A DNA stretch of 33,995 nt, taken from positions 1-33,995 of IMG/VR virus record IMGVR_UViG_3300035182_000761, one strand, 5' to 3'. Position numbers and translations under genes: made by a program. Below the pieces are notes generated by a model that ran no database searches, was not told the DNA's origin, and saw only the letters and a list, made by a program, of their open reading frames with translations. Shown one piece after another: positions 636 through 25,240 of this stretch; position 1 is the stretch's first letter; each line of letters opens with the position of its first letter. Source of the DNA: a virus.

Positions 636-1400
636 GTGCCTTCTCTTATCATAGGGGATTCCGGGAGTTTTGTTGGCGAGGCTTGGGTCGGCGGCGCGGT
701 AACTAATCAAGCCGTTTCAAATCTGCAATCGCTTGCCCCCGGCACAATCGTCGATATGTTCTCAATTGACGCCACCGCCTACGGGTTGGGGCTGCTTAAC
801 TACTCGCCCGAGACAAATGCCTTGGGGAATGATGTCGTGTGGCAGGGAGTGACATACGTGCGGTTCCCCGTTATCGTGGATGGGTATCAGAAAAGCAGCC
901 AAGGATCCTTGCCACGCCCCACCATGACTCTCGGCAACGTGGGCGGGATACTCAGTCCTTTACTCAAGGCGTACAACAGCCTATTAGGCTGCAAGGTTAC
1001 GCGGCGGCGGACGCTATCGAAGTATTTGGATCCAGTGAACTTCTCTGGCGGGGTAAACCCAACGGCAGACCCAAATTCCCATTTTCCAGATGAGGCGTAC
1101 TTCATTGACCGAAAGTCGGGGGAAAGCGCTCTAGCCATCCAGTTTGAGTTAGCCGTCGCGTGGGATGTAACTGGTGTAAAATTGCCTTTACGTCAAGTGA
1201 TTCGGGACTCTTGCCAATACACGTACCGAAGTGCCGAATGCAGTTATATTGGGGGTGCGGTGGCGAAGGTCGATGACAGTGCGACGGCAAACATAGGTGA
1301 AGACCGTTGTAGCAAAACCCGTGTGGGTTGTACGTTACGATTCGGCGTAAATAACCCTTTACCCGCCTCTTTCTTCCCTTCCGTTGGCTTAATCCGATGA
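636..1400 (+). CDS. L: Phage minor tail protein L (tail tip, iron-sulfur type)
   Basis: The gene has a GTG start with AAGGGG upstream and encodes 254 residues, close to the usual size for lambda gpL. The C-terminal third carries four cysteines at about residues 193, 202, 225 and 232. This is the arrangement that binds an Fe-S cluster in lambda gpL (known for the family). The protein is expected at the tail tip, joining the tail tube to the gpJ hub. Its TGA stop overlaps the ATG of the next gene (ATGA), as expected in the L-K-I-J cluster. Assignment rests on order, size and the cysteine pattern. Confidence 0.9.
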   Translation: MPSLIIGDSGSFVGEAWVGGAVTNQAVSNLQSLAPGTIVDMFSIDATAYGLGLLNYSPETNALGNDVVWQGVTYVRFPVIVDGYQKSSQGSLPRPTMTLGNVGGILSPLLKAYNSLLGCKVTRRRTLSKYLDPVNFSGGVNPTADPNSHFPDEAYFIDRKSGESALAIQFELAVAWDVTGVKLPLRQVIRDSCQYTYRSAECSYIGGAVAKVDDSATANIGEDRCSKTRVGCTLRFGVNNPLPASFFPSVGLIR

Positions 1401-2098
1401 CCCCTGAAGCCTTAGCCCACGCCCAGTCCGACATAGACCGCGAAGTCTGCGGCCTCTTTGTTATCCGTAAGGGGCGCGAAGAGTACATCCCATGCCAAAA
1501 CACCGCAGAGCACCCGGCAGATGACTTTATAATCGACCCGGACGATTGGGTTAAAGCCGACGCACTCGGTGAGATTGTAGGCATTTTCCATTCGCACCCG
1601 AGGTCACGCCCGCTGCCCACCCAGGCAGACCTTGTGTCGTGCGAACGCTCTGGCCTGCCTTGGACAATTGCGAACCCCAGAACTGGGGAAGTCCACACAT
1701 TCCAACCTACGGGCTACGAAGCTCCGTTGTATGGCCGCGAATACTGCCACGGCGTACTGGATTGCTATTCGTTCGTCCGCGACTTTTACCGTCAGGAGTA
1801 TGGGATCGAGCTGCGGGATTATGAGCGCGAGGATGAGTGGTGGCTCAAGGGGTTTGACCTGTACAGGGACTACATGAGGGATGAGGGGTTCCGCCCGATC
1901 GACATCTCAGATATGCGAGTTGGCGATGGTATTATTATGAACATAGCCTCAGACGTGGGCAATCATGGGGCAATTTACATAGGGGAGGGTCAGATGGCTC
2001 ACCACCTATACCAACGCCTAAGCAGCCGCGACATCTACGGCGGGTACTATCGAAAGCACACGTTACTCGTAGTGCGCCACAAGGATTTGAACAATTGA
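1397..2098 (+). CDS. K: Tail assembly protein K: JAMM peptidase fused to NlpC/P60 hydrolase
   Basis: Two catalytic domains are visible in 233 residues. The N-terminal half is a JAMM/MPN fold with Glu16 and the zinc motif H65-x-H67-P followed by D78; the usual Ser before the Asp is Thr here. The C-terminal half is NlpC/P60-like, with Cys123 in the context HGVLDCYSFVRDFY and His190 in NHGAIYIGEG. Lambda gpK homologues act during tail-tip assembly and are thought to cut peptidoglycan. The start overlaps the gpL stop, and the stop overlaps the TTG start of gpI, so translation is probably coupled. Confidence 0.93.
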   Translation: MTPEALAHAQSDIDREVCGLFVIRKGREEYIPCQNTAEHPADDFIIDPDDWVKADALGEIVGIFHSHPRSRPLPTQADLVSCERSGLPWTIANPRTGEVHTFQPTGYEAPLYGREYCHGVLDCYSFVRDFYRQEYGIELRDYEREDEWWLKGFDLYRDYMRDEGFRPIDISDMRVGDGIIMNIASDVGNHGAIYIGEGQMAHHLYQRLSSRDIYGGYYRKHTLLVVRHKDLNN

Positions 2099-2679
2099 AA
2101 ACGATCAGGCTTCATGGGTGGCTCGGGAAACGGTTTGGCAAGCAATTCCGCCTCGATGTGGCTTCGCCTGCCGAGGCTGTGCGCGCGCTTTGTTCCCAGC
2201 TAGCTGGGTTTCAAAAAGCTCTCACTGACGACGTGCATGGGTTTCGGGTTCGAGTACAAAAGACAGCCTTGGTGGAGAAGGAGCTGCAATATCCGTTTGG
2301 GGCTTCTGAAACTCTGCACTTAGTTCCCGCCGTATCGGGATCTGGGGGCAAGGGGGGTATTGGGCAAATCTTTCTCGGCATCGCGTTGATCGCAGCCTCT
2401 TTCCTTTTCCCACCAGCCTTTACTTTATTCGGCGTTGCAGTTGCCCCTGCTTTGGCCAGCTTTGGCTTCTCCATGATCCTCGGGGGCGTTGCCCAGTTTC
2501 TGTTCGCCCCACCGTCTTCCAAGGTTACGGAGCGCCCCGAGAACAAGCCAAGCTACGCGTTCAATGGCCCAGTCAACACTGTGCAACAAGGCAACTGCGT
2601 CCCCGTGCTTTACGGCGAGCTCATCATCGGGTCGCAAGTCGTGTCCGCCGGACTATTCACGGAAGACCTCGCCGTATGA
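2095..2679 (+). CDS. I: Tail assembly protein I
   Basis: The 194-residue product begins at TTG, which overlaps the gpK stop as TTGA. No in-frame ATG lies close by, so coupled initiation at TTG is the best choice. The N-terminal part is a ubiquitin-like segment (KTIRLHGWLGKRFG), typical of lambda gpI. A Gly/Ala-rich hydrophobic segment (about residues 85-145) with possible transmembrane stretches follows, then the conserved end with NTVQQGNCVPVLYGEL. GpI is required for tail assembly and is absent from the mature tail in lambda (known). The stop overlaps the gpJ start. Confidence 0.92.
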   Translation: MKTIRLHGWLGKRFGKQFRLDVASPAEAVRALCSQLAGFQKALTDDVHGFRVRVQKTALVEKELQYPFGASETLHLVPAVSGSGGKGGIGQIFLGIALIAASFLFPPAFTLFGVAVAPALASFGFSMILGGVAQFLFAPPSSKVTERPENKPSYAFNGPVNTVQQGNCVPVLYGELIIGSQVVSAGLFTEDLAV

Positions 2680-5600
2680 GCAAGATATACGGTTCCGGTG
2701 GCGGGAAATCAGCCGGTAGCGCTCCACAAGAATCCCCAGACAGCCTTCGCTCGCGCCAAAAGGCTCGCATCGTGGAGGTGCTCTCTGAGGGCGAAATTGT
2801 CGGGCTGGTAACTGGCCTTAAATCGGTCTACTTGAACGACGTCGCCGTCCAGAACGCCGACAACTCGTATAACTTCAACGACGTGACGATGGTATCTACC
2901 GTCGGCACACAAGTCCAAGACTACATACCTGGCTTCTCTGGGTCGGAGGCGGAGACGGCGGTAGGGGTGAAGATTGTTCAAGCGACGCCGTACATCATTT
3001 CCGTACCCGCTCGTTCATCTTCAGGTGCAGATGCTATTCGTTTGACTATCGGAGTCCCCGGCTTAACTTTTCTTGATGATAAGGGGAACATCAATGGCAC
3101 GAATGTAGACCTCCTCATCCACGTTGAGCATAACGGCGGTGGCTACGTGCAGAAGGCGGCAAACACCATTTCCGGCAAGACGACCAGCCGCTACCAGCGC
3201 AACTACCGCCTCTCGTTACCGCAAACCGAGACTGGCCCATGGAACGTGCGTATCACCCGCGTAACGGCAGACTCGGCAAGCGCCAAACTCGTCAATGACC
3301 TTTACATCGACTCGTACACTCTGATCTCCGAGTTGAAGATGCGCTATACCAATAGCGCGGTGGTCGGATTGGAGATCAATGCCGAGCGCTTCAGTTCTAT
3401 CCCGACGCGCGGATACCACGCGCAGGGCTTGAAAATTAAAGTGCCGACCAACTATAACCCGACGACGCGGGTTTACACGGGGTTTTGGGATGGCACTTTT
3501 CAAACTCTGTACTCCAACAACCCCGCGTGGGTGATGTACGACTTGCTGACCCAAAGCCGGTATGGGCTGGGTCGGTACGTGGACGTGGGACTGGTGAACA
3601 AATGGAACCTTTATACCATCGCGCAGTATTGCGACGCCCTCGTTCCCGATGGCTACGGTGGGACAGAGCCCCGGTACACCTGCAATTTATACCTACAGTC
3701 GCGGGAGGAAGCGTTCAAGTGGATTCTCAACGTGGCTTCGGTATTTCATGCAGCGGCCTATGGTAGCGGGGGAGGCATCGACTTCGTACAGGATGCCCCG
3801 CGTGATCCTATCGCCCTCTATACGCCAGCCAATGTAATCGAAGGGATTTTTGAATACTCCGGTGCTAGCATCAAGGCTCGGCACAATGTCGCCTTGGTGT
3901 CGTGGAATGACCCAGCGGACATGTACCGGCAAAAGATCGAGTACGTAGAAGACCCGGATGACATCGCCCTCTATGGCCTGGTACAGACCGAGGTCGTGGC
4001 GCTCGGCTGTTCGTCACGAGGGCAGGCGCGACGTTTCGGACGCGCCATCTTGTATGCCGAGAAATATGAGAGTGAAGGAATCGCATTTACGGCGGGGCTA
4101 GACACGCACAAGGTCTTCCCTGGTGCCGTCTTCAATGTGGCCGACCCAACGCGCGCGCAGGTACAAAACGGTGGGCGGCTGCTCTCGGCTACGACGACCT
4201 CCATCACAATTGACCGCCCCATTACAATAGGGGTAGGGGTAAGCCACACGGTGCGAGTGGTGCTGCCCGACGGTACGGTGGAGGCGCGCACCGTGTCCAA
4301 CTCGGGGGCTGGCCTGACCGTTCTTAACGTCAGCGCAGCGTTCTCGCAAGTCCCCTTGTCGATGGCGATGTGGGTAATCGAGTCAACCGACAAGCCGACC
4401 GAGAGTTGGGTATGTTTGTCAGTTACAGAGGACACGGCGTCCAGCAATATCGCGGTAGTTGGGATGGCCTACCACCCGGAGAAGTTCGCGCTTATCGACG
4501 CTGACCTGCCGTTGCCCGCGACCCCAACATACAACCCGTACTTGGCTTCGCCGCCTCCGACTTCGCTGGCAGCCTCAGTTTACCTAAGCAACCAGAACGG
4601 GCTGGATTTACTCGTGTCGTGGGTGCCAGCAGAGGGCACTCGGTTTGCGAGGATCGCATACGCGCTGGCCAACGAGAACTTCACTGTGATCGACGCGCTG
4701 TACTCGAACTCCTTTACGATTCCAAACGTCTCGATAGGCGCGTACACAATCCTGGTGAGCACACTCAATAGTGCCGGGGTTCCGTCTCCCGAAGCGTCCT
4801 TGACGTATAGCGTGGTGTCGGCTGCGGTACTTCCGGACGTGACGGGACTGGCTCTCCAGCAACCTTTTGTCGATCAGTTCGCGGCGTTCGTCTGGAACGG
4901 GCTACCTACCGCTGACAGTTATAGAGTGCAGATACTCGTCTCGGGCGTAGTCAAGCGCGACGTTACTATCTCATCCGTGTGGTTCCGTTACGATTATGCC
5001 GAGTCGCTGGCGGACGGCGGAGGCACGCCTCTGCGGGCATTCGATATTCGGATCAAAGCCAAATTCGGGACATTGGAGTCAGGCAATTGGCTACAAATTT
5101 CGGTGGCCAACGCCGCCCCCGCCGCACCTTCTATCTCGGTTACTGCCCTTCCGTTGGCTATTCAGGTGATCGCCACTCTGCCAGCAACGGTCACGGACTA
5201 TGCGGGCATGATCGTGTGGGCGAGTACGACGCCTGGGTTCGCCTTGATTGACGCAAACAAGATATTCGATGGGGTTACCAACACTGCCACAATCAACGGG
5301 CTTACCGCAGGAATCCCTCTTTACGTTCGGAGCGCCTTCTATGATGTGTTCGGTAAGACCGGCCTGAACGCAACCTCGGAATTTACCGTAACCCCCTTCG
5401 CCAACTCAGCCAACCTGCCGATCGTCAACACTCTGCCGTCAAGCGGCCTGGCCGAGGGTCAGGTGATATACCTGACCACCGACGACAAGCTCTACCGATA
5501 CAATGGCACGGCGTGGGTAACGTGGGTCGATGGGTCTGACATACTCGCTGCCTCAGTTACGGCGGGCAAAATCACAACGACGAGTCTGTCGGCAATTAGC

Positions 5601-15695: not shown

Positions 15696-16826
15696 TCATG
15701 CCGTGCGACCAAACGCCCGACGTGCTCCTGCGCTGCTCGACGAAACTAGCTTCAGTCCGCCTACCTTGCGTTCAGAGTAAGACCCCACCAAGTCCTCTGG
15801 CAACCCGGCTTTAATTGCCTGTGTCGGGGTGCAAGCGCCGGGCTTGCTGATGTCCACACCCATCATTTGCCCGAGAGCGATGACCTCTTCAATGGGCTTC
15901 GTCCACCCAACGCGACCCGAGGTTGACTCCAGCGCAAAGCCGGGGACGACCTTACCCGCTTTAATCTCAGACGCAGCCATCTCTTCGAGGCCGGTCTTAC
16001 GTGCTTCAAGCCGCGCAAGATGGTGGTTGAGTAGGGAGAGCTCGGTGCCCAAGGCTGCGTCGGATAGCACAAGGGGAACAGGGCTGCCCGAGTATTCCAT
16101 CGCGCTAAACCCCGCCTGTTGCACCGCCTCGCATACGTGCCGCGCCGAGCAGTACCGGCACTCTGAGTTCGGTACACACTTGGCATCGACGCGCAACCAT
16201 GCGGCTCCTGCTGCGGCACGCAGAATGTTGAAGTAGGGGCGAAGCTCGCTGGCGTTAATGACCCATTCGCGGATCGGGCCATCCCGATGATAGTTGCGTG
16301 GTTGCACGACACGGAAGCGAAGGGTGAAGAACTGGTCATCTACATCGGATCCCCGCTTTACCCCAAGTTGCTCCAGGATGCCCGCCGCGTAGGTAATAAG
16401 CTGCCAGTTCTCGAACACATCAACGAACCCGTGCCCGTATTTGAAATCCCAAATCGTGATGATGCCCGAATCGTGATGCCAGGCGTCCGGGGTGCCGCCG
16501 CAATCCGAGTGGATCGCGTGGCAAGCCATCGTTTTCTCGATGTGCAGCGCGCCGCCGAGACGAGCGACATCCAACACACTCATAGCGTACATGTCGGCGG
16601 CGTCCAGCATTTCCTCGGTGACTTCGACGCCATTGGGTGCTACCGTGCCGATCGATGCTTGTGCATTGAGGATGCTCTCGCTCGCTACCCAATGCGCCGC
16701 CGTACCTTCAAGCGAAGCGGGGGAGTCTTCACCGGGGTAGAGCGCGCATAAAGCCACGCTGCCGGGGCAGGCCACCCAACGCGCCGCCGACGAGGCGGCC
16801 AGGGGGAAGTGGAAAAGCTCGCTCAT
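15696..16826 (-). CDS. DUF2800 PD-(D/E)XK nuclease-like protein
   Basis: The 376-residue protein has the RecB-like nuclease layout of DUF2800. It starts with AASSAARWVACPGS, then GTAAHWVASE (Glu40 region), GGTPDAWHH with Asp114, IWDFKYG with Asp127 and Lys129, and WQLITYA with Gln142. A Cys cluster near residues 215-232 (CVPNSECRYCSARHVCEA) resembles the Fe-S cluster of Cas4/AddB-type nucleases. It probably processes DNA ends during replication or recombination. The ATG overlaps the upstream gene's stop. The family is common beside this type of polymerase and SSB in phages. Confidence 0.88.
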   Translation of the reverse strand: MSELFHFPLAASSAARWVACPGSVALCALYPGEDSPASLEGTAAHWVASESILNAQASIGTVAPNGVEVTEEMLDAADMYAMSVLDVARLGGALHIEKTMACHAIHSDCGGTPDAWHHDSGIITIWDFKYGHGFVDVFENWQLITYAAGILEQLGVKRGSDVDDQFFTLRFRVVQPRNYHRDGPIREWVINASELRPYFNILRAAAGAAWLRVDAKCVPNSECRYCSARHVCEAVQQAGFSAMEYSGSPVPLVLSDAALGTELSLLNHHLARLEARKTGLEEMAASEIKAGKVVPGFALESTSGRVGWTKPIEEVIALGQMMGVDISKPGACTPTQAIKAGLPEDLVGSYSERKVGGLKLVSSSSAGARRAFGRTA

Positions 16827-17509
16827 ACGACCAATCCCAGCTCACGAGCAACGGCAGGAATCAGATCGGGGCGGTTGATAAGCCCCGGTAGGTTGGACAC
16901 GCCATGCTTGACACAGGCATCGACAATATCATCACGCGTGAACCGTTGCGAAGTTACGCCAGCAGTCACGTGTGACATGAACTCAGGGAAACTGTAACCG
17001 GTAGACGGTGCAGGCGGCGCGGGTGGCGCAGGTGGCGCAGGTGGCGCAGGTGGCGCAGGTGGCGCAGGTGGCGCGGGTGGCGCAGGTGGCGCAGGTGGCG
17101 CAGGTGGCGCAGGTGGCGGCACAAGATCGGGCGCGGCGGGAGCCATCTGCGCTACCCGTGCATCCGTGACCGCACGGTCAACCTCGGCTTGGTCGATGCC
17201 GCGCTTGCGCTTCCAGACCCCTTCGACCGTTTTGGTTTTGGTAGAGGCATGGATACGCCCATCCCACGGGAGACCATCTTTGTCGAGGCCGTCAACTACG
17301 GGGGGGTCGCTGGGAACGGTAGCCCGTGCCGCTTCCGTGGGAGGGGAAATGGAGGTCGGGCCGTTCGTAGCAATGGGCGACCCAAACACCAAGGGGGAGT
17401 CGCTGGGAGCAGTGCATGGGGCGATAAACGCCGTCAGGTACTTAACGACGAGCTCAAGCTCAATGGGATCAGTTGAAGCTGGGTTGGTAATTCGTATCTC
17501 TACACTCAT
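16823..17509 (-). CDS. Phage replication-operon protein with (PPA)n linker
   Basis: The 228-residue protein is the first gene of the leftward operon; AAGGAG precedes its ATG. The N-terminal ~130 residues contain DKDGLPWDGRIHASTKTKTV followed by GVWKRKRG, a pattern I recognise in phage proteins of this operon type without a known function. A run of about a dozen PPA units follows, forming a stiff linker. A C-terminal helical domain (~60 residues, YSFPEFMSHVT...) resembles a small protein-protein contact module. It may bridge replication proteins; this is inference. The stop overlaps the DUF2800 start. Confidence 0.78.
   Translation of the reverse strand: MSVEIRITNPASTDPIELELVVKYLTAFIAPCTAPSDSPLVFGSPIATNGPTSISPPTEAARATVPSDPPVVDGLDKDGLPWDGRIHASTKTKTVEGVWKRKRGIDQAEVDRAVTDARVAQMAPAAPDLVPPPAPPAPPAPPAPPAPPAPPAPPAPPAPPAPPAPPAPSTGYSFPEFMSHVTAGVTSQRFTRDDIVDACVKHGVSNLPGLINRPDLIPAVARELGLVV
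17013..17119. repeat. 9-bp tandem repeat encoding the PPA linker
   Basis: About a dozen nearly perfect copies of GGTGGCGCA (plus-strand reading) are translated on the minus strand as Pro-Pro-Ala. Only occasional A/G changes are seen. Copy number is prone to slippage but stays in frame, so linker length can vary freely. Confidence 0.92.
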
Positions 17510-17527
17510 TTTTTCTTTAACTCCTTA

Positions 17528-17556
17528 TTGACGAAGATTCAAGCGTAGCGTATATT
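17528..17556 (+). promoter_or_regulatory. Rightward sigma70-type promoter
   Basis: TTGACG at 17528-17533 and TATATT at 17551-17556 are separated by exactly 17 bases. This gives a near-consensus promoter about 30 bases before the first rightward gene at 17592. It should drive the helicase-methyltransferase-primase operon. Confidence 0.68.
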
Positions 17557-17570
17557 GACATTCTTGTCAA
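17542..17570 (-). promoter_or_regulatory. Leftward sigma70-type promoter
   Basis: On the minus strand TTGACA (17570-17565) is a perfect -35 box. After 17 bases comes TACGCT (17547-17542), a weaker -10. The first leftward gene starts at 17509 behind an AAGGAG site. The promoter overlaps the rightward one, so the two compete for polymerase. Confidence 0.55.
17555..17570. promoter_or_regulatory. Palindromic operator between divergent promoters
   Basis: TTGACATTCTTGTCAA is a perfect 6-bp inverted repeat around a TTCT spacer. It covers the end of the rightward -10 and start site, and all of the leftward -35. A dimeric repressor bound here would silence both operons. The regulator is not identified; the TetR-type HTH protein at 23996 is one candidate. 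Confidence 0.55.
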
Positions 17571-17591
17571 CAACTTTAGAGAGGCTAAGAA

Positions 17592-17849
17592 ATGCTGGAC
17601 TATCTTGAAGTAAAACGGTTCTACGCCGATAAGCTGCGCGACGATGCCGACGGTATAGGCCGCGTGGAATCCGCTTTCTTCCACACGATCAAAATGGCGT
17701 ACCTGAGAGGCGTTGCGGATGGTGAGCGAGGGAATCGGAGCAGTGTGGATGAAGCCGTTGCCTGGCTTACCGACCGTGGCACAATGTACTTCGACAAAGA
17801 AGACGCCCAGCGGGACTGCGACGGAATCATCCAACCGCTCTACGAATGA
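17592..17849 (+). CDS. Hypothetical small phage protein
   Basis: The 85-residue acidic protein starts MLDYLEVKRFYADKLRDDAD and ends in GIIQPLYE. It is the first gene of the rightward operon and has GAGG before its ATG. It is mostly helical in appearance, with AFFHTIKMAYLRGVADGER in the middle. No known domain. Its stop overlaps the helicase ATG (ATGA), so the two are translated together. Confidence 0.72.
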   Translation: MLDYLEVKRFYADKLRDDADGIGRVESAFFHTIKMAYLRGVADGERGNRSSVDEAVAWLTDRGTMYFDKEDAQRDCDGIIQPLYE

Positions 17850-20506
17850 TCGTCCTCCGTGATTACCAAGAACAGCTTTACGGCGATATTCACGCTGCGT
17901 GGGATAGAGGCGTGCGCAACGTGCTGGCAGTAGCGCCCACCGGTAGCGGCAAGACAAGCGTGTTCGCCAAAGTCATTTACGATCACCCTGGCGCGTCGAT
18001 CGCCATCGCCCACCGGAATGAGCTGGTGAGCCAGATCAGTATGGCGCTGGCGCGTAATGGCGTGCGGCATCGCATTATCGGGTCGAAAGAGGCGGTGCGA
18101 ACGTGCGTCAGCCTGCATGTGAGCGAATTGCGCCGGTCGTACTTCGATCCTGACGCGGCACACGGTGTCGCTGGCGTTGACACACTGGTGAAGCGCCCGC
18201 CTGACGATCCGTGGTTTCGTCGGGTTTCGTTGTGGGTTCAGGACGAGTGCTTCGTCGCCGGGACTTTGGTGGACGGGAGGCCCATCGAGACTATCCGCGT
18301 GGGCGATATTGTGACTGCTTTCGATGAGGCCGCCGGGACTTTTCATCAGCGTTCGGTCACCCGCCTTTTTCGCAATCTCGCTCCAGAAAACATGGTGCGG
18401 GTAGAAACAAAAGGGCGTCATGTCTTATATTGTACTCCCGGCCATCCTTTCTGGACGAAACGCGGATGGGTTGAAGCCGGGAACCTGCTCAAAACTGATG
18501 AGGTATTAAGCCATGAACTGCACGCAATGCGGAGTCCCGGTGCCGGAAACGAACGAAGCGCAGCGGTATCGCTATCGGAAGACTGGCAACATCTTTTGTA
18601 CCAAAAAGTGTGGGATGTTGTTCAGAGAAGCCAAACGAACCCCCGAGTGGTCTACTCGCCCGGTTGTCGAGCGGGAAAAAGTATCGTGCCACGTATGCTC
18701 GAAGCCGTCCGATCTCTCGGGGCACAGGGCAAGCCAGTACCTAAAGACTGGGCGAGCGTATTGCAGTCGGGAGTGCTCAAACAAATACCGGGCGCAGCGA
18801 TCTTCCGAGACGGTGACACTGACCAACCAAAAGTATGCTTCTGCCCGAATGAAAGCCAACAACCCGATGCGAAACCCAGAGACGCGAGCCAAGGTGAGCC
18901 TGCGGCTCAAAGCGACGGGACATCAGCCGGTCGTGCGCGGGGGGAATGGTCGCCCTGCAACTCTGCCGGAACAAACACTACTGACGCTATTCGCGGGGCT
19001 GGGGTTCATGGCGCAACCGGCGATCCGAACTGGGGTGAAAAAAGGAGATATTCGCCGAATCCCGCCGTCGTACAAACCGGACTTGGGGAATTTCCAATTG
19101 AAGATTGCCCTGGAAGCGGACGGCGGAAGCCACTGTGGGCGGAAGCACCTGGACGAGAAGAAGGATGCTTTTCTGAATGGGTTGGGCTGGACAGTATTGA
19201 GGTTTGCCAACGCGGAGATCCTGGAACGCCCAGACCAAGTGGTGACGACGGTTATGTCTACAATCTTGAAGTCGCTGGGTTCCACACCTACGTCGCCAAC
19301 GGCATAGTCGTTCACAACTGCCACCACCTCCTCGCTGATAACAAGTGGGGCAAGGCCACCGCCCTTTTCCCCAATGCCAAAGGGCTCGGCGTGACCGCCA
19401 CACCGACGCGCGCCGACGGCAAAGGGCTGGGTCGGCACGCTGACGGCCTGATGGACGTGATGGTGGAATCGCCGGGGATGCGGGAACTGATCGGGCTAGG
19501 GTTTCTGACAGATTATCGAATCTTCGCGCCACCCAGCGACATCAACCTGGCCGACGTACCGACCAGCGCGAGCGGCGACTTCAGCCCCGAACCGCTGCGC
19601 GCCGCCGTCCACAAATCTCACGTGGTTGGTGACACGGTGCAACACTACCTGCGCATTGCTCCGGGCAAACTGGGGGTGACGTTTGCGGTGGACGTGGAAG
19701 GCGCAACGGAACTGGCGGCAGCCTACCGTCAAGCCGGGGTTCCCGCCGAAGTGGTAAGCGCCAACACCCCACCCGCCTTGCGCGCCGCCATCCTCGCCCG
19801 CTTCGCTCGGGGCGACCTGAAGCAACTGGTGAACGTTGACCTTTTTGGCGAAGGGTTTGACTTGCCCGCCATCGAAGTCGTCAGCATGGCGCGACCCACG
19901 CAGTCCTTCGCACTCTTCTCGCAACAATTCGGTCGCTCGCTACGCCCGCTGCCCGGCAAGAGCCACGCGATCATCATTGACCACGTGAGCAACGTCATGC
20001 GCCACGGCCTACCCGACGCACCGCGAGTGTGGACGCTGGATCGCCGCGAGCGCCGGGCGCGCGGTAAACCCGACGATGTAATCCCGGTTCGCACCTGCCC
20101 GTCGTGCCTATCTGTCTACGAGCGCATCTACCGGGAATGCCCGTTCTGCGGCCACTACCCGGAACCCGCCGGGCGCTCAGGGCCAGAGATGGTTGACGGC
20201 GACCTCGCCGAGCTATCACCCGAAGCGTTGGCGCGGTTACGTGGCGAGATCGACAAGCCGCTGGTACTGCCGTTCGGTGCCGCGCCGGAGGTGGTGGGAG
20301 CGGTGAAGAAGCGCCATCGTGAGCGCGAGCAGGCACAGTTGGCCCTGCGGGAAGCGATGGCGCGTTGGGGCGGCGCGCGGGTGGCCGAGGGGATGACTCT
20401 GAGCCAGGCGCAACGGCGGTTTTATATCAGCTTTGGCATCGACGTGGCTTCAGCGCAAGCGCTGGGACGGGCAGATGCGGACACATTGCGGGGGAGGCTG
20501 GAATGA
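17846..20506 (+). CDS. DExH-box helicase interrupted by an intein
   Basis: The precursor has 886 codons; removing the intein (residues 135-491) leaves a 529-residue superfamily 2 helicase. Visible motifs are LRDYQEQLY (start), Walker A PTGSGKT at 31-37, IAHRNELVSQ (Ia), the DECH box split by the intein, GVTATPTR (III), VNVDLFGEGFDLPAIEVV (V) and QQFGRSLRP (VI). A zinc ribbon (CPSC...CPFCGH) begins at precursor residue 751. It should unwind or remodel DNA during phage replication or repair. Because the intein separates DE from CHH, only the spliced protein can hydrolyse ATP. The start overlaps the preceding stop, and the stop overlaps the next start. Confidence 0.95.
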   Translation: MIVLRDYQEQLYGDIHAAWDRGVRNVLAVAPTGSGKTSVFAKVIYDHPGASIAIAHRNELVSQISMALARNGVRHRIIGSKEAVRTCVSLHVSELRRSYFDPDAAHGVAGVDTLVKRPPDDPWFRRVSLWVQDECFVAGTLVDGRPIETIRVGDIVTAFDEAAGTFHQRSVTRLFRNLAPENMVRVETKGRHVLYCTPGHPFWTKRGWVEAGNLLKTDEVLSHELHAMRSPGAGNERSAAVSLSEDWQHLLYQKVWDVVQRSQTNPRVVYSPGCRAGKSIVPRMLEAVRSLGAQGKPVPKDWASVLQSGVLKQIPGAAIFRDGDTDQPKVCFCPNESQQPDAKPRDASQGEPAAQSDGTSAGRARGEWSPCNSAGTNTTDAIRGAGVHGATGDPNWGEKRRYSPNPAVVQTGLGEFPIEDCPGSGRRKPLWAEAPGREEGCFSEWVGLDSIEVCQRGDPGTPRPSGDDGYVYNLEVAGFHTYVANGIVVHNCHHLLADNKWGKATALFPNAKGLGVTATPTRADGKGLGRHADGLMDVMVESPGMRELIGLGFLTDYRIFAPPSDINLADVPTSASGDFSPEPLRAAVHKSHVVGDTVQHYLRIAPGKLGVTFAVDVEGATELAAAYRQAGVPAEVVSANTPPALRAAILARFARGDLKQLVNVDLFGEGFDLPAIEVVSMARPTQSFALFSQQFGRSLRPLPGKSHAIIIDHVSNVMRHGLPDAPRVWTLDRRERRARGKPDDVIPVRTCPSCLSVYERIYRECPFCGHYPEPAGRSGPEMVDGDLAELSPEALARLRGEIDKPLVLPFGAAPEVVGAVKKRHREREQAQLALREAMARWGGARVAEGMTLSQAQRRFYISFGIDVASAQALGRADADTLRGRLE
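18248..19318 (+). mobile_element. Intein in the DExH box of the helicase (357 residues)
   Basis: The intein begins with Cys1 in CFVAGTLVDGRPIETIRVGD (block A). Block B is YCTPGHPFWTKRGWVEAGNLL, with the TxxH-type residues. The C-terminal blocks read GYVYNLEVAGFHTYVANGIV and end in VHN, followed by extein Cys+1 (CHH). Nucleophile, penultimate His, terminal Asn and +1 Cys are all present, so splicing should work. The N-terminal splicing part ends near 18512 and the C-terminal part starts near 19244. The ~240 codons between them are open but show no LAGLIDADG or HNH motif. That segment instead carries a homing-endonuclease-like gene in another frame. Confidence 0.95.
18513..19307 (+). CDS. EDxHD-type homing endonuclease nested out of frame within the intein
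   Basis: The 264-residue ORF starts at ATG 18513, with GAGG ten bases upstream, and lies in a different frame from the helicase-intein. It has two zinc-finger-like units, C3-x2-C6-x22-C29-x3-C33 and C59-x2-C62-x21-C84-x3-C88. A NUMOD3-like segment (NPMRNPETRAKVSLRLK, 117-133) follows. The nuclease core resembles Vsr/PD-(D/E)XK proteins: Glu153, Asp190, E201-x-D203-G-x-x-H207 and Asp214, then GWTVLRFANAEI. EDxHD enzymes are known beside split inteins in phage metagenomes. It fills exactly the intein linker and its last ~20 codons overlap the splicing domain. It probably cuts intein-free helicase genes to spread the element. Confidence 0.9.
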   Translation: MNCTQCGVPVPETNEAQRYRYRKTGNIFCTKKCGMLFREAKRTPEWSTRPVVEREKVSCHVCSKPSDLSGHRASQYLKTGRAYCSRECSNKYRAQRSSETVTLTNQKYASARMKANNPMRNPETRAKVSLRLKATGHQPVVRGGNGRPATLPEQTLLTLFAGLGFMAQPAIRTGVKKGDIRRIPPSYKPDLGNFQLKIALEADGGSHCGRKHLDEKKDAFLNGLGWTVLRFANAEILERPDQVVTTVMSTILKSLGSTPTSPTA

Positions 20507-20757
20507 GCCACCTCGCCCTCTTCGCCTCCGCGTTCTTCACCGTATTCTTGTTGGGTTTCCAGCAAAAGAACGTCCACGGCGGCCACTATTTCGCAGCGGC
20601 CATCACCAGTTTTGGCATCGGCACGGCGCAGATTTTCCTGTGGCGGCTGGTTCCACACGCCAACGCCAGCGAGATCGCAGCTACCTTGCTCGGCGGGCCG
20701 GTCGGCATCGTCGCGGCGATGTGGCTACATCCACGAATTATGAGGAAACACAAATGA
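20503..20757 (+). CDS. Small phage membrane protein
   Basis: The 84-residue protein has about three hydrophobic helices: SHLALFASAFFTVFLLGFQQ, YFAAAITSFGIGTAQIFLW, and ATLLGGPVGIVAAMW. The end is basic (HPRIMRKHK). I recognise this LLG-QQ-NV...AAAITS-GIG...GG--GI-A-MW pattern in many phages, always without assigned function. ATG overlaps the helicase stop. It is an inner-membrane protein expressed early, possibly acting on the host envelope or on superinfection. Confidence 0.82.
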   Translation: MSHLALFASAFFTVFLLGFQQKNVHGGHYFAAAITSFGIGTAQIFLWRLVPHANASEIAATLLGGPVGIVAAMWLHPRIMRKHK

Positions 20758-20954
20758 TCTGCATAAACGAACAAGAAATCGGCTATTACCGTGACACTCT
20801 GGCGCTGCTGCTGGCCGTCCACTCTCTCGACCCTGATCCTTCCTTGCGCGCGGCAGCGCTTGAGATACTCGCCAAGGATGGCGCGACAGATACCGCGAGT
20901 GCGCAGACCGTCCTGCTTGGGCGCATCCTTGAAATGTCGGAGAAGTTCTTATGA
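20754..20954 (+). CDS. Hypothetical small acidic protein
   Basis: The 66-residue acidic helical protein (MICINEQEIGYYRDTLALLL...) is preceded by GAGGAAA. Its ATG overlaps the previous gene's end, and its stop overlaps a 16-codon micro-ORF leading to the VRR-NUC gene. No domain recognised. Confidence 0.68.
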   Translation: MICINEQEIGYYRDTLALLLAVHSLDPDPSLRAAALEILAKDGATDTASAQTVLLGRILEMSEKFL

Positions 20955-22649: not shown

Positions 22650-22940
22650 ATGACACCGGAATACTTGAAAGAATTGGCCGACCTCGCTGACCCCGGCAAG
22701 CTGTGGCGCACGTCTGGATTGGCGCAGGACTGCTTCACGCCGGAACAGAAGCGCCAACTTGACACCGGGGTCGCGTTGCGGCGCCAGGCCGACCATGTGC
22801 GGCGACTGCGCGAACTGCTGGGCACTGGCAAGAGCCTGCTGATTACGCCACTGTCTCTAAGCTGCGCTGATTTACGCGTCGTGCCAATGCCGGACGACAT
22901 CAAGAAGAGGCTGGCCGCAACAACAGGAGATAAGCAATGA
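22650..22940 (+). CDS. Hypothetical phage protein
   Basis: The start is placed at 22650 because AAAGGA lies at good spacing; the in-frame ATG at 22641 touches that site. The 96-residue helical protein (MTPEYLKELADLADPGKLWR...) has the segment RRQADHVRRLRELLGTGKSLLITPLS. GTGKS resembles a P-loop but no Walker context surrounds it. Its stop overlaps the next ATG. No function assigned. Confidence 0.68.
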   Translation: MTPEYLKELADLADPGKLWRTSGLAQDCFTPEQKRQLDTGVALRRQADHVRRLRELLGTGKSLLITPLSLSCADLRVVPMPDDIKKRLAATTGDKQ

Positions 22941-23791
22941 GTGAAACGCAAGAAACAACCGAAGCCACTGACGCAGCAGGCGCAGTAAGCAATGCGCTGC
23001 GCCACGCGTACAGCCTGGGCCAAACGTATTGGCAGCAGGCCGATAGCGAGAGCTACAGCCAAAACAAAAAGGCTGATGAAACAGAGCGGCGCTTTGCCAC
23101 GCTGGTGAAAGAAACCCGCGCGATGGTGCTGGCTGAAGAGCTGGTGCGCGACCCATTGACCGAAGTGTTAGGCCAGATGCTTTCCGCGCTGGAGATTGCG
23201 CAAAAATTTTGCGGTTCCCTTTCGGCGGATGACTTCCCCGATACGGTAGCAATCCCAATTACCAACGCAGTAAATGAAGGCCGGAAAGCTCTAACGAAGC
23301 CAGATGGCGCGGCGTCCTTGTTGAGCGACGTGTTAGAGCTTTTGCCGTGCCCGTTTTGCGGTGGAGAAGCGCGGCCAACTGCGCACCTGACGTATTCATG
23401 GTTCGCGCCAGTATGCAAATCGTGCGGCGTGAGCGGCCCATCAGTCCGAATTGCAAGCGGAGCTGACCGGCAGAAGCTGCGCGAACTCATGAACAAGGCG
23501 GATGCGCTATGGAACACTCGCGCCCCTAACGCGGGTTATGCCACACACCCTTTAGAGGGGCTGGAGAAATATCATGTTGAAATACCGGTGGCTGGTGAAG
23601 AAAGACAAACTGCAAATGTGGTTCGCATGGAGACTCCCGAAGTGGTTGGTGAAGTGGGCTGCGGTGCGGCTAATGGCACACGCAACGACGGGCGAGTATG
23701 GTTCAACGGTGGTGCCGGAACTCACTGCGATGGATGCGCTGAAACGGTGGGATGGGGCGTAAAGTGGGTTTTTACACCAAGTGACGCATAA
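22937..23791 (+). CDS. Lar-like zinc-ribbon protein with unusual C-terminal extension
   Basis: In 284 residues, the first ~130 are helical and acidic. A restriction-alleviation (Lar)-type zinc ribbon follows: LPCPFCGGEA with C138/C141, VCKSCG with C160/C163, then ADALWNTRAP at 189-197. Lar proteins modulate type I restriction in Rac prophage; this role is only suggested here. Lar-type proteins normally end soon after the WN-R element. The extra ~90 residues overlap a different frame (23574-23762) that looks more natural, so the extension may be a by-product of dual coding. ATG overlaps the previous stop. Confidence 0.72.
   Translation: MSETQETTEATDAAGAVSNALRHAYSLGQTYWQQADSESYSQNKKADETERRFATLVKETRAMVLAEELVRDPLTEVLGQMLSALEIAQKFCGSLSADDFPDTVAIPITNAVNEGRKALTKPDGAASLLSDVLELLPCPFCGGEARPTAHLTYSWFAPVCKSCGVSGPSVRIASGADRQKLRELMNKADALWNTRAPNAGYATHPLEGLEKYHVEIPVAGEERQTANVVRMETPEVVGEVGCGAANGTRNDGRVWFNGGAGTHCDGCAETVGWGVKWVFTPSDA
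23574..23762 (+). CDS. Small conserved phage protein nested in the Lar-like gene
   Basis: The 62-residue product starts MLKYRWLVKKDKLQMWFAWR and continues with LPKWLVKWAAVRLMAHATTG, then VVPELTAMDALKRW. I recognise the AWRLP...WAA-R-...HATTG-YG-TVVPELTAMDALKRW pattern in many phages. GGAG lies at good spacing before the ATG. It is entirely contained, in another frame, within the C-terminal part of the 284-codon ORF. The conserved pattern makes this the more credible coding frame here. Function unknown. Confidence 0.78.
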   Translation: MLKYRWLVKKDKLQMWFAWRLPKWLVKWAAVRLMAHATTGEYGSTVVPELTAMDALKRWDGA

Positions 23792-24292: not shown

Positions 24293-25240
24293 ATGCCTCA
24301 TTCAAATAAGGTCTTCTTCGGGGACTGCCGGGAATCCATGTGCGAAATGATCGGCCTCGGCATCAAGGCACAAACCTGCGTTACCTCGCCCCCCTACTTT
24401 GGCCTTCGGGATTACGGACATCCCGGTCAGCTTGGCCTCGAAAGCACAGTTGAAGAGTACGTTGCCAACTTGGTGACGGTGTTCCGCCTTGTGCGCGAAC
24501 TGCTGGCTGATGATGGCGTGCTTTGGCTGAACTTGGGCGACAGCTACGCCGCGAATAGAAGTTATCAAGTGCCTGATGGACTTAAAAATAAAGACCTGAT
24601 CGGCATCCCGTGGCGCGTGGCGCTGGCGTTGCAAGCCGATGGTTGGTATTTGCGCCAGGACATCATTTGGCACAAGCCTAACCCGATGCCGGAAAGCGTG
24701 ACGGATCGTTGCACCAAGTCCCACGAGTACCTATTCATGCTGACCAAGAACGCCCGATATTACTTTGACTCGGAGGCGATCAAGGAACCAATAACCGACT
24801 CAAGCGCCATCCGACTGTTGCAGAAAGTCGAGGAACAAACGGGGAGTGACCGAGTTCCGGGGAAGACCAACGGGAACATGAAGGCGGTTGGGCGTAAGCC
24901 CTTCGACCCGTCGATGGCTGGGGGAGGAACGAGCTACGTGGGGCATAGCGGGTACTTTAAGGCTGACGGGACGTGCATGGTGCGTCCCACCCGCAACAAG
25001 CGCTCCGTCTGGACGATCAGCACCAAACCCTACAAAGGCGCACACTTCGCCACCTTCCCCCCGGAACTGGTCGAGCCTTGCGTGTTGGCGGGCAGCCGCC
25101 CCGGCGACCTCGTGTTTGACCCGTTCCTCGGCAGCGGCACGACGGTGATGGTGGCCGCGCGACACGGGCGACGATGGGTTGGATGTGAGCTGAATGAAGA
25201 GTACGGCCCCCTCCAAGAAGAAAGGTTGCTCAAAGCATGA
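24293..25240 (+). CDS. N4-cytosine/N6-adenine DNA methyltransferase
   Basis: The 315-residue protein carries catalytic motif IV TSPPYFGLRDYG at residues 31-42. SPPY favours N4-cytosine or beta-class enzymes. It also has WLNLGDSY, DIIWHKPNPMPESV, and the SAM-binding DPFLGSGTT at 276-284, in the permuted beta order. It modifies phage DNA; no cognate restriction endonuclease is seen nearby. GGAGG precedes the ATG. The stop overlaps the primase-helicase start. Confidence 0.93.
   Translation: MPHSNKVFFGDCRESMCEMIGLGIKAQTCVTSPPYFGLRDYGHPGQLGLESTVEEYVANLVTVFRLVRELLADDGVLWLNLGDSYAANRSYQVPDGLKNKDLIGIPWRVALALQADGWYLRQDIIWHKPNPMPESVTDRCTKSHEYLFMLTKNARYYFDSEAIKEPITDSSAIRLLQKVEEQTGSDRVPGKTNGNMKAVGRKPFDPSMAGGGTSYVGHSGYFKADGTCMVRPTRNKRSVWTISTKPYKGAHFATFPPELVEPCVLAGSRPGDLVFDPFLGSGTTVMVAARHGRRWVGCELNEEYGPLQEERLLKA

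Follow-up and report, generated by a model that had tools for sequence, protein, structure and literature searches.

Inteins are generally described as single polypeptides that carry splicing and homing activities together. The helicase gene of the viral DNA analyzed here raises the question of whether the two activities can be shared between two genes that overlap in one stretch of sequence. The window, by which we mean the whole stretch analyzed, is the IMG/VR virus record IMGVR_UViG_3300035182_000761 (33,995 bases), and all coordinates are window positions. Its superfamily 2 (SF2) helicase gene very probably contains a mobile, cis-splicing intein whose homing endonuclease is a separate gene, overlapping the intein in the +1 frame. 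Such a nested arrangement had been proposed earlier from the letters alone (the original prediction), and re-reading of the open reading frames (ORFs) confirmed its coordinates for the intein and the nuclease.

The helicase ORF (17846-20506) comprises 886 codons and is free of stops throughout, including the intein region. Pfam matches to ResIII/Helicase_C, PT-HINT and Intein_splicing all lie in this one frame. Aligned with intein-free phage helicases, residues 1-134 and the last 395 residues form one helicase, approximately 61-62% identical to that of Shewanella phage SppYZU01; the intervening residues 135-491 are inserted between the DE and the CHH of the motif II box. Intein-free alleles of the helicase exist, and the empty site of SppYZU01 reads DE/AHH (slashes mark the insertion point). 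The exteins closest to those of the window belong to two loci with a nested nuclease, L030 (66%) and L025 (64%), followed by the empty SppYZU01 (62%). The intein itself has 357 amino acids (18248-19318) and reads LWVQDE/CFVAGTLV...ANGIVVHN/CHHLL across its junctions. The helicase frame is divided as follows.

17846..18247, plus strand: helicase N-extein, ending in the DE of motif II (Pfam ResIII; the alignment to intein-free helicases stops at ...WVQDE).
18248..18517, plus strand: N-terminal splicing block of the intein, with Cys1 and the TPGH of block B, ending in ..KTDEVL (PT-HINT/intein_Nterm; Hint fold in the AlphaFold2 (AF2) model, predicted local distance difference test (pLDDT) 93-97 for residues 1-90).
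18518..19147, plus strand: intein-frame linker of approximately 210 residues, stop-free and with little conservation other than that imposed by the nuclease (pLDDT ~42; identity compared with the null; stop count).
19169..19318, plus strand: C-terminal splicing block with blocks F and G and the His-Asn (intein_Cterm; AF2 strands at 308-322, 336-342, 347-350 and 353-356).
19319..20506, plus strand: helicase C-extein, starting with Cys+1-His-His (Helicase_C; alignment to intein-free helicases).

All class 1 splicing residues are present in the insert (Cys1, the T..H of block B, His-Asn and Cys+1), and its intein features were matched in both Pfam and NCBIfam. Among 33 related inteins C1, T63, H66 and H356-N357 are invariant; the +1 residue is Cys in the window and Cys or Ser in the relatives. 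In the AF2 model of the intein, residues 1-90 and 308-357 form two confidently predicted Hint pieces (pLDDT of the halves ~95), separated by the ~210 residues of low pLDDT. A Foldseek search with this model returned the Mtu RecA intein (2IMZ, E 1.1e-5) as top match, with other mini-inteins among the best matches. Pfam, alignment and Hint model thus bear out the intact Cys1, block B, His-Asn and Cys+1 of the original prediction, and the insert is presumably a class-1-type intein that splices in cis. The linker is predicted to be disordered, and appears to be unconserved and kept only free of stops. The N- and C-halves share one ORF in the window, so that the locus is not split, and no split case was found among the loci carrying the nuclease. 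A group I or group II intron was also considered; an Rfam covariance search of 17500-20800 gave only one chance match to a long non-coding RNA, located outside the intein.

The second product is encoded in the +1 frame, within the intein. Its features are given below.

18513..19307, plus strand: 264-amino-acid, Vsr-like/DUF559 homing-type nuclease in the +1 frame (ORF, Pfam, structure model, purifying selection).
18519..18611, plus strand: first zinc-finger-like Cys pairs, C3, C6, C29 and C33 (sequence and alignment; absent in several relatives).
18687..18776, plus strand: second zinc-finger-like Cys pairs, C59, C62, C84 and C88, invariant or nearly so (alignment; weak zf-FCS/zinc-ribbon matches in some members).
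18837..18917, plus strand: conserved, DNA-contact-like segment ASARMKANNPM...RAKVS (near-invariant columns).
18954..19280, plus strand: catalytic domain, residues ~148-256 (VIA-align Z 13.4 to 3HRL, 11.8 to I-Bth0305I 3R3P and 9.2 to Vsr 1CW0).

The nuclease matches Pfam DUF559 (PF04480) with E 3.5e-13 and 49.8 bits, against a cut-off of 20.6, and all 43 members of the nuclease family match DUF559 (E<=1). Together with a high-confidence model (pLDDT 91), this upholds the claim of a full 264-residue nuclease in a different frame. Other claims about the protein stood in part. The assignment to the EDxHD enzymes agrees with the I-Bth0305I/Vsr catalytic fold, and D190, D203, H207 and D214 are invariant and E201 nearly so, but the residue register is mixed, since HMMER aligns D203 with an Asn of 3R3P. 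Two zinc fingers had been predicted; the second shows little or no variation, while several relatives begin at it and lack the first. Similarly, the predicted NUMOD3-like segment corresponds to a conserved RMKxNNPM-type segment that resembles NUMOD3 by eye only, NUMOD3 itself lying outside the 25 commonest Pfam matches of the 43 members (E<=1). In several relatives the nuclease ends earlier than in the window.

Traces of selection were sought in both frames. As a null model for stops, the nuclease codons of each copy were shuffled among synonymous sites, preserving the protein and its codon use. The intein frame contained no stops in 84 copies, compared with 720 expected, and none compared with 447 expected in a set of loci chosen without regard to the nuclease (the nuclease-blind set, described below), in line with the predicted selection for an open intein frame; the third frame, used as control, had 1156 stops with 1070 expected. 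The original prediction had further proposed comparing variation by codon position. In fifteen independent pairs, changes in the overlap at nuclease codon positions 1, 2 and 3 numbered 295, 264 and 737, revealing purifying selection in the nuclease frame. In the N-intein (157, 106 and 365 changes by intein-frame position) and the C-extein (683, 463 and 1630) the third-position excess lies in the helicase frame; thus, the wobble signal shifts by one base where the nuclease begins and reverts after its end. The proportion of amino-acid change in the overlap was 0.16 for the nuclease, 0.30 for the intein and 0.31 for the third frame. Because position 3 of the nuclease is position 1 of the intein, amino acids of the intein linker are replaced at the rate of the third frame and at double that of the nuclease. 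Both frames are clearly under selection.

Conservation of the intein frame was also compared with the level forced by nuclease conservation, using synonymous-shuffle nulls, and the reverse test was applied to the nuclease frame. Over nuclease residues 10-215 intein-frame identity was 0.218, compared with 0.210 in the null. From nuclease residue 222 onward it lay far over the null, and nuclease-frame conservation exceeded its own null up to ~19274 and hardly past 19277. One further feature is defined by these limits.

19178..19274, plus strand: dual-coding zone of ~100 nt, read as the strands WVGLDSIEV..VYNLEV in the intein and as GWTVLRFAN...STILK, including the last helix, in the nuclease (above synonymous-shuffle nulls in both frames).

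True dual coding is limited to this zone, where the C-terminal splicing block begins. The original prediction had placed conservation in both frames in the last ~64 bases; constraint on both is present, but the last 30 bases (19277-19307) are conserved as intein only. Short inteins that have lost the nuclease retain the corresponding segment (KVESVTI...DGYVYNIEV in L203, for example), which supports placing the dual-coded segment in the splicing domain. The findings in the two frames support the proposal that one DNA segment specifies a spliced linker and a separate nuclease.

By tblastn, relatives of the nuclease were found in 41 phage-collection records, mostly Vibrio phages, but including Pseudomonas phage MR14 and Corynebacterium phage phi673. 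The inspected isolate records annotate only a helicase or a hypothetical protein at the locus and leave the nuclease unannotated, so that nuclease censuses miss it. Profile scans of IMG/VR and of bacterial and archaeal genomes yielded ~100 further loci, and loci were classified with profiles of the N-half, the C-half and the nuclease together with six-frame ORFs. Among 123 loci selected by the nuclease, 98 had a single ORF spanning both intein halves and a nuclease in +1; at another 6 the N-half, and at 1 the C-half only, was found with a +1 nuclease, the former in a spanning ORF. Neither +2 nesting nor a split intein occurred among the 123. The nuclease was in frame at 4 loci (one intein), and the remaining 14 were chromosomal DUF559 genes without an intein. 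Ascertainment bias was removed in a nuclease-blind sample, for which loci were picked by the intein N-half alone with a search profile of 13 N-halves. In this sample a +1 nuclease within one ORF was present at 76 of 80 loci, although L188 and L203 retain it only as a truncated remnant; one further locus was +1 but ended by the contig edge, and the other three, of which two are distinct, were mini-inteins lacking the nuclease. The mini-inteins and remnants (L153, L158, L203 and L188) have 130-170 amino acids, occupy the same helicase site and have kept the splicing frame, although little or nothing of the nuclease is left; the nuclease-less short inteins retain only the splicing blocks. In total, homologues of both frames, which the original prediction had suggested searching for, amount to ~119 copies differing by more than 5%.

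Every intein-borne out-of-frame nuclease that was classified is in +1. This constancy, together with the 41 phage records, argues that the ORF overlap is not due to chance. A sequencing artefact is ruled out by the identical layout in isolate genomes of several laboratories. Since the layout recurs in more than 100 distinct phage and bacterial sequences, it is an evolved packing of a selfish element into one DNA stretch and no accident.

Related arrangements were met during these scans. Nested inteins related to that of the window are present in SNF2-type proteins (L005, L060), and the nested intein was also met in contigs with a bacterial assignment (L101-L112, e.g. Riflebacteria, Elusimicrobia and Planctomycetota). 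Two inteins at cysteine-rich motifs of radical SAM proteins (L011:808-2982 and L014:1473-4346) contain +1 nested nucleases without a Pfam match, which hints that the +1 slot can accept different nucleases. At L006-L009 (ORF 838-4104) a related DUF559/Vsr nuclease lies in frame in the intein of a Phage_Mu_F-like head protein; this conventional counterpart may be useful for tracing the origin of the nested form. At L010:2406-3971 the ORF of an intein N-half ends and is followed by an ORF with RMKANNPM-type segments (HNH-like by eye) and then by the C-half. This arrangement resembles a split intein that carries an endonuclease of its own; it is the only split-like case met, and its ORF differs from the window nuclease. 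A plasmid search returned only helicase matches, none spanning 80% of the query.

How could the inner gene be translated? The original prediction had given it its own ATG and a GAGG site; the ATG at 18513 with a Shine-Dalgarno (SD) sequence stood, and the core was refined to the following.

18500..18504, plus strand: GAGGT Shine-Dalgarno core, 8 nt before the nuclease ATG and read as part of the D-E-V codons in the intein frame.

The window codons GAT GAG GTA, which contain GAGGT, are common to CP-T1, 1.027.O, MR14, 104E43.1 and others. Of 69 loci with a nuclease-frame ATG near the junction, 32 had an SD of at least 5 nt; for ATGs of the other two frames, used as control, the counts were 1 of 17 and 2 of 51. 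The Glu codon of D-E-V is GAG in 12 of 14 cases, compared with 43% elsewhere, although these events are not independent. In 48 of 71 copies with a junction ATG the nuclease frame has a stop within 36 nt upstream; in the window and in L002 it lies 3 nt or directly before the ATG.

Most simply, the element would be a homing intein that relies on internal initiation for production of its endonuclease. Translation of the helicase frame would yield the N-extein, one Hint half, the ~210-residue disordered linker, the second Hint half and the C-extein, and the folded intein would excise itself, restoring the DECHH helicase motif. Other ribosomes would initiate at the internal ATG (18513) via the SD built from the intein D-E-V codons, producing a free, 29-kDa Vsr-like nuclease. 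This enzyme would cleave the motif II site of helicase genes that lack the intein, with the whole element being copied in during repair. Splicing, internal initiation, the cleavage site and homing are inferred; the sporadic occupancy of the helicase site fits mobility. Several observations weigh against this account. No product of either frame has been observed, and the clearest SD and start are missing from some copies, 13 of 82 having no ATG near the junction. At ~61% identity, the nearest empty allele is too distant to demonstrate recent homing, and divergence of extein and nuclease is correlated (rho 0.69), making long stretches of vertical inheritance likely.

Other explanations have to be weighed against the same data. 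The intein might splice and the nuclease be made, with a main task other than homing, such as attack on competing phage or host DNA. DUF559 relatives without an intein do occur in bacterial chromosomes, and homing is itself deduced; however, the nuclease accompanies the intein at one conserved site class (DE/C) in diverse helicases, has been lost cleanly from mini-inteins and resembles a homing enzyme in structure, and we consider this explanation improbable, though the least so of the alternatives. A programmed +1 frameshift could produce a fusion of N-extein, N-intein and nuclease without separate initiation. In some relatives (L044, L061) the nuclease frame is indeed open far upstream of the conserved start, across the N-intein, but the stops shortly before the ATG close this route in the window, L002 and the many other copies mentioned, and the SD enrichment is specific to the nuclease frame; such a fusion is accordingly very unlikely.

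Marginally less probable still is an insertion without intein function, retained whole in the helicase as in the ShiLan case discussed below. The insert interrupts the Walker B motif, hence its retention should kill the helicase; moreover, Cys1, T..H, His-Asn and Cys+1 are present in a Hint fold, the motif columns are invariant in the 33 inteins, and nuclease-less copies preserve the splicing blocks alone. Finally, the out-of-frame ORF might be the relic of an in-frame endonuclease that was shifted out of frame, with only the intein frame being relevant. A related nuclease does lie in frame in another intein (L006-L009). Across the linker, however, purifying selection falls on the nuclease frame, and the intein frame evolves as non-coding sequence apart from stop avoidance, leaving this explanation with almost no probability.

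On balance, it seems probable that the homing intein with an overlapping endonuclease gene represents a widespread, previously unrecognized class of mobile inteins that divide homing and splicing between two overlapping genes, with the ribosome-binding site of the endonuclease in intein codons and with a beta-strand of the intein and one of the nuclease sharing DNA. The lineage occurs in isolate phages, uncultured viruses and bacterial assemblies. Expression of the nuclease would be separated from that of the helicase, and at the same time the nuclease would be tied to the host gene, because a frameshift in it would destroy the helicase; this would be a natural counterpart of synthetic sequence entanglement. 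Such inteins could serve as a system for studying internal initiation inside a translated gene and the fitting of two folds onto one DNA sequence. They raise the questions of whether selfish endonucleases decay more slowly when entangled and whether the dose of the nuclease is separable from that of the host protein. With a disordered, apparently dispensable linker and natural short derivatives of 130-140 amino acids, they may also serve as insertion-tolerant splicing tools.

The remainder of the window carries a siphophage-type gene set, with a lambda J-like tail fiber, DNA polymerase A, an exonuclease and a primase. Next to the helicase region, on the minus strand (16823-17509), tandem repeats of the GGCGCAGGT type encode a protein with a long (Ala-Pro-Pro)n repeat. 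Anti-restriction functions are suggested by the genes at 22937-23791 and 24293-25240, which encode a protein containing a Lar-type restriction-alleviation domain and an N6/N4 DNA methylase.

Among known systems, conventional homing inteins such as PI-PfuI and Mtu RecA share with the window intein the Hint fold, the position of the endonuclease between the N- and C-splicing blocks and the sporadic occupancy of a conserved motif. Their endonuclease normally shares the reading frame of the intein and is excised with it, whereas all nested copies described here are in +1. I-Bth0305I (EDxHD) and Vsr share the catalytic fold of nuclease residues 148-256 (Z 11.8 and 9.2); I-Bth0305I, however, is part of a mobile group I intron and has an Asn at the position aligned to D203. 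Split inteins with an EDxHD endonuclease ORF were reportedly described as 'fractured genes' by Dassa et al. in 2009. They likewise have a nuclease of a related superfamily between the intein halves, as its own ORF, but their host gene is broken and they splice in trans, while the window has one continuous ORF, a cis arrangement and the nuclease in an overlapping frame.

In ShiLan, a phage gene contains an out-of-frame endonuclease, the host frame is stop-free, and separate translation was proposed (PMC11855218). The window is similar in having a complete homing-type endonuclease out of frame within a stop-free host frame. The ShiLan enzyme, however, is an HNH nuclease without a splicing domain and without a ribosome-binding site found, in contrast to the Hint intein, Vsr-like/DUF559 nuclease, intein-derived SD and dual-coded splicing strand of the window. 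The same paper cites Gosselin, Arsenault and Gogarten (2025, bioRxiv) for overlapping frames in actinophages. In our literature search, no publication describing an out-of-frame endonuclease within a true intein was found, which does not exclude a prior description. The 2025 preprint reportedly deals with actinobacteriophage inteins of 'non-canonical architecture', which may include nested endonucleases and may overlap with the window family. The arrangement in the window joins the overlap of the ShiLan type and the EDxHD nuclease beside an intein in one continuous intein.
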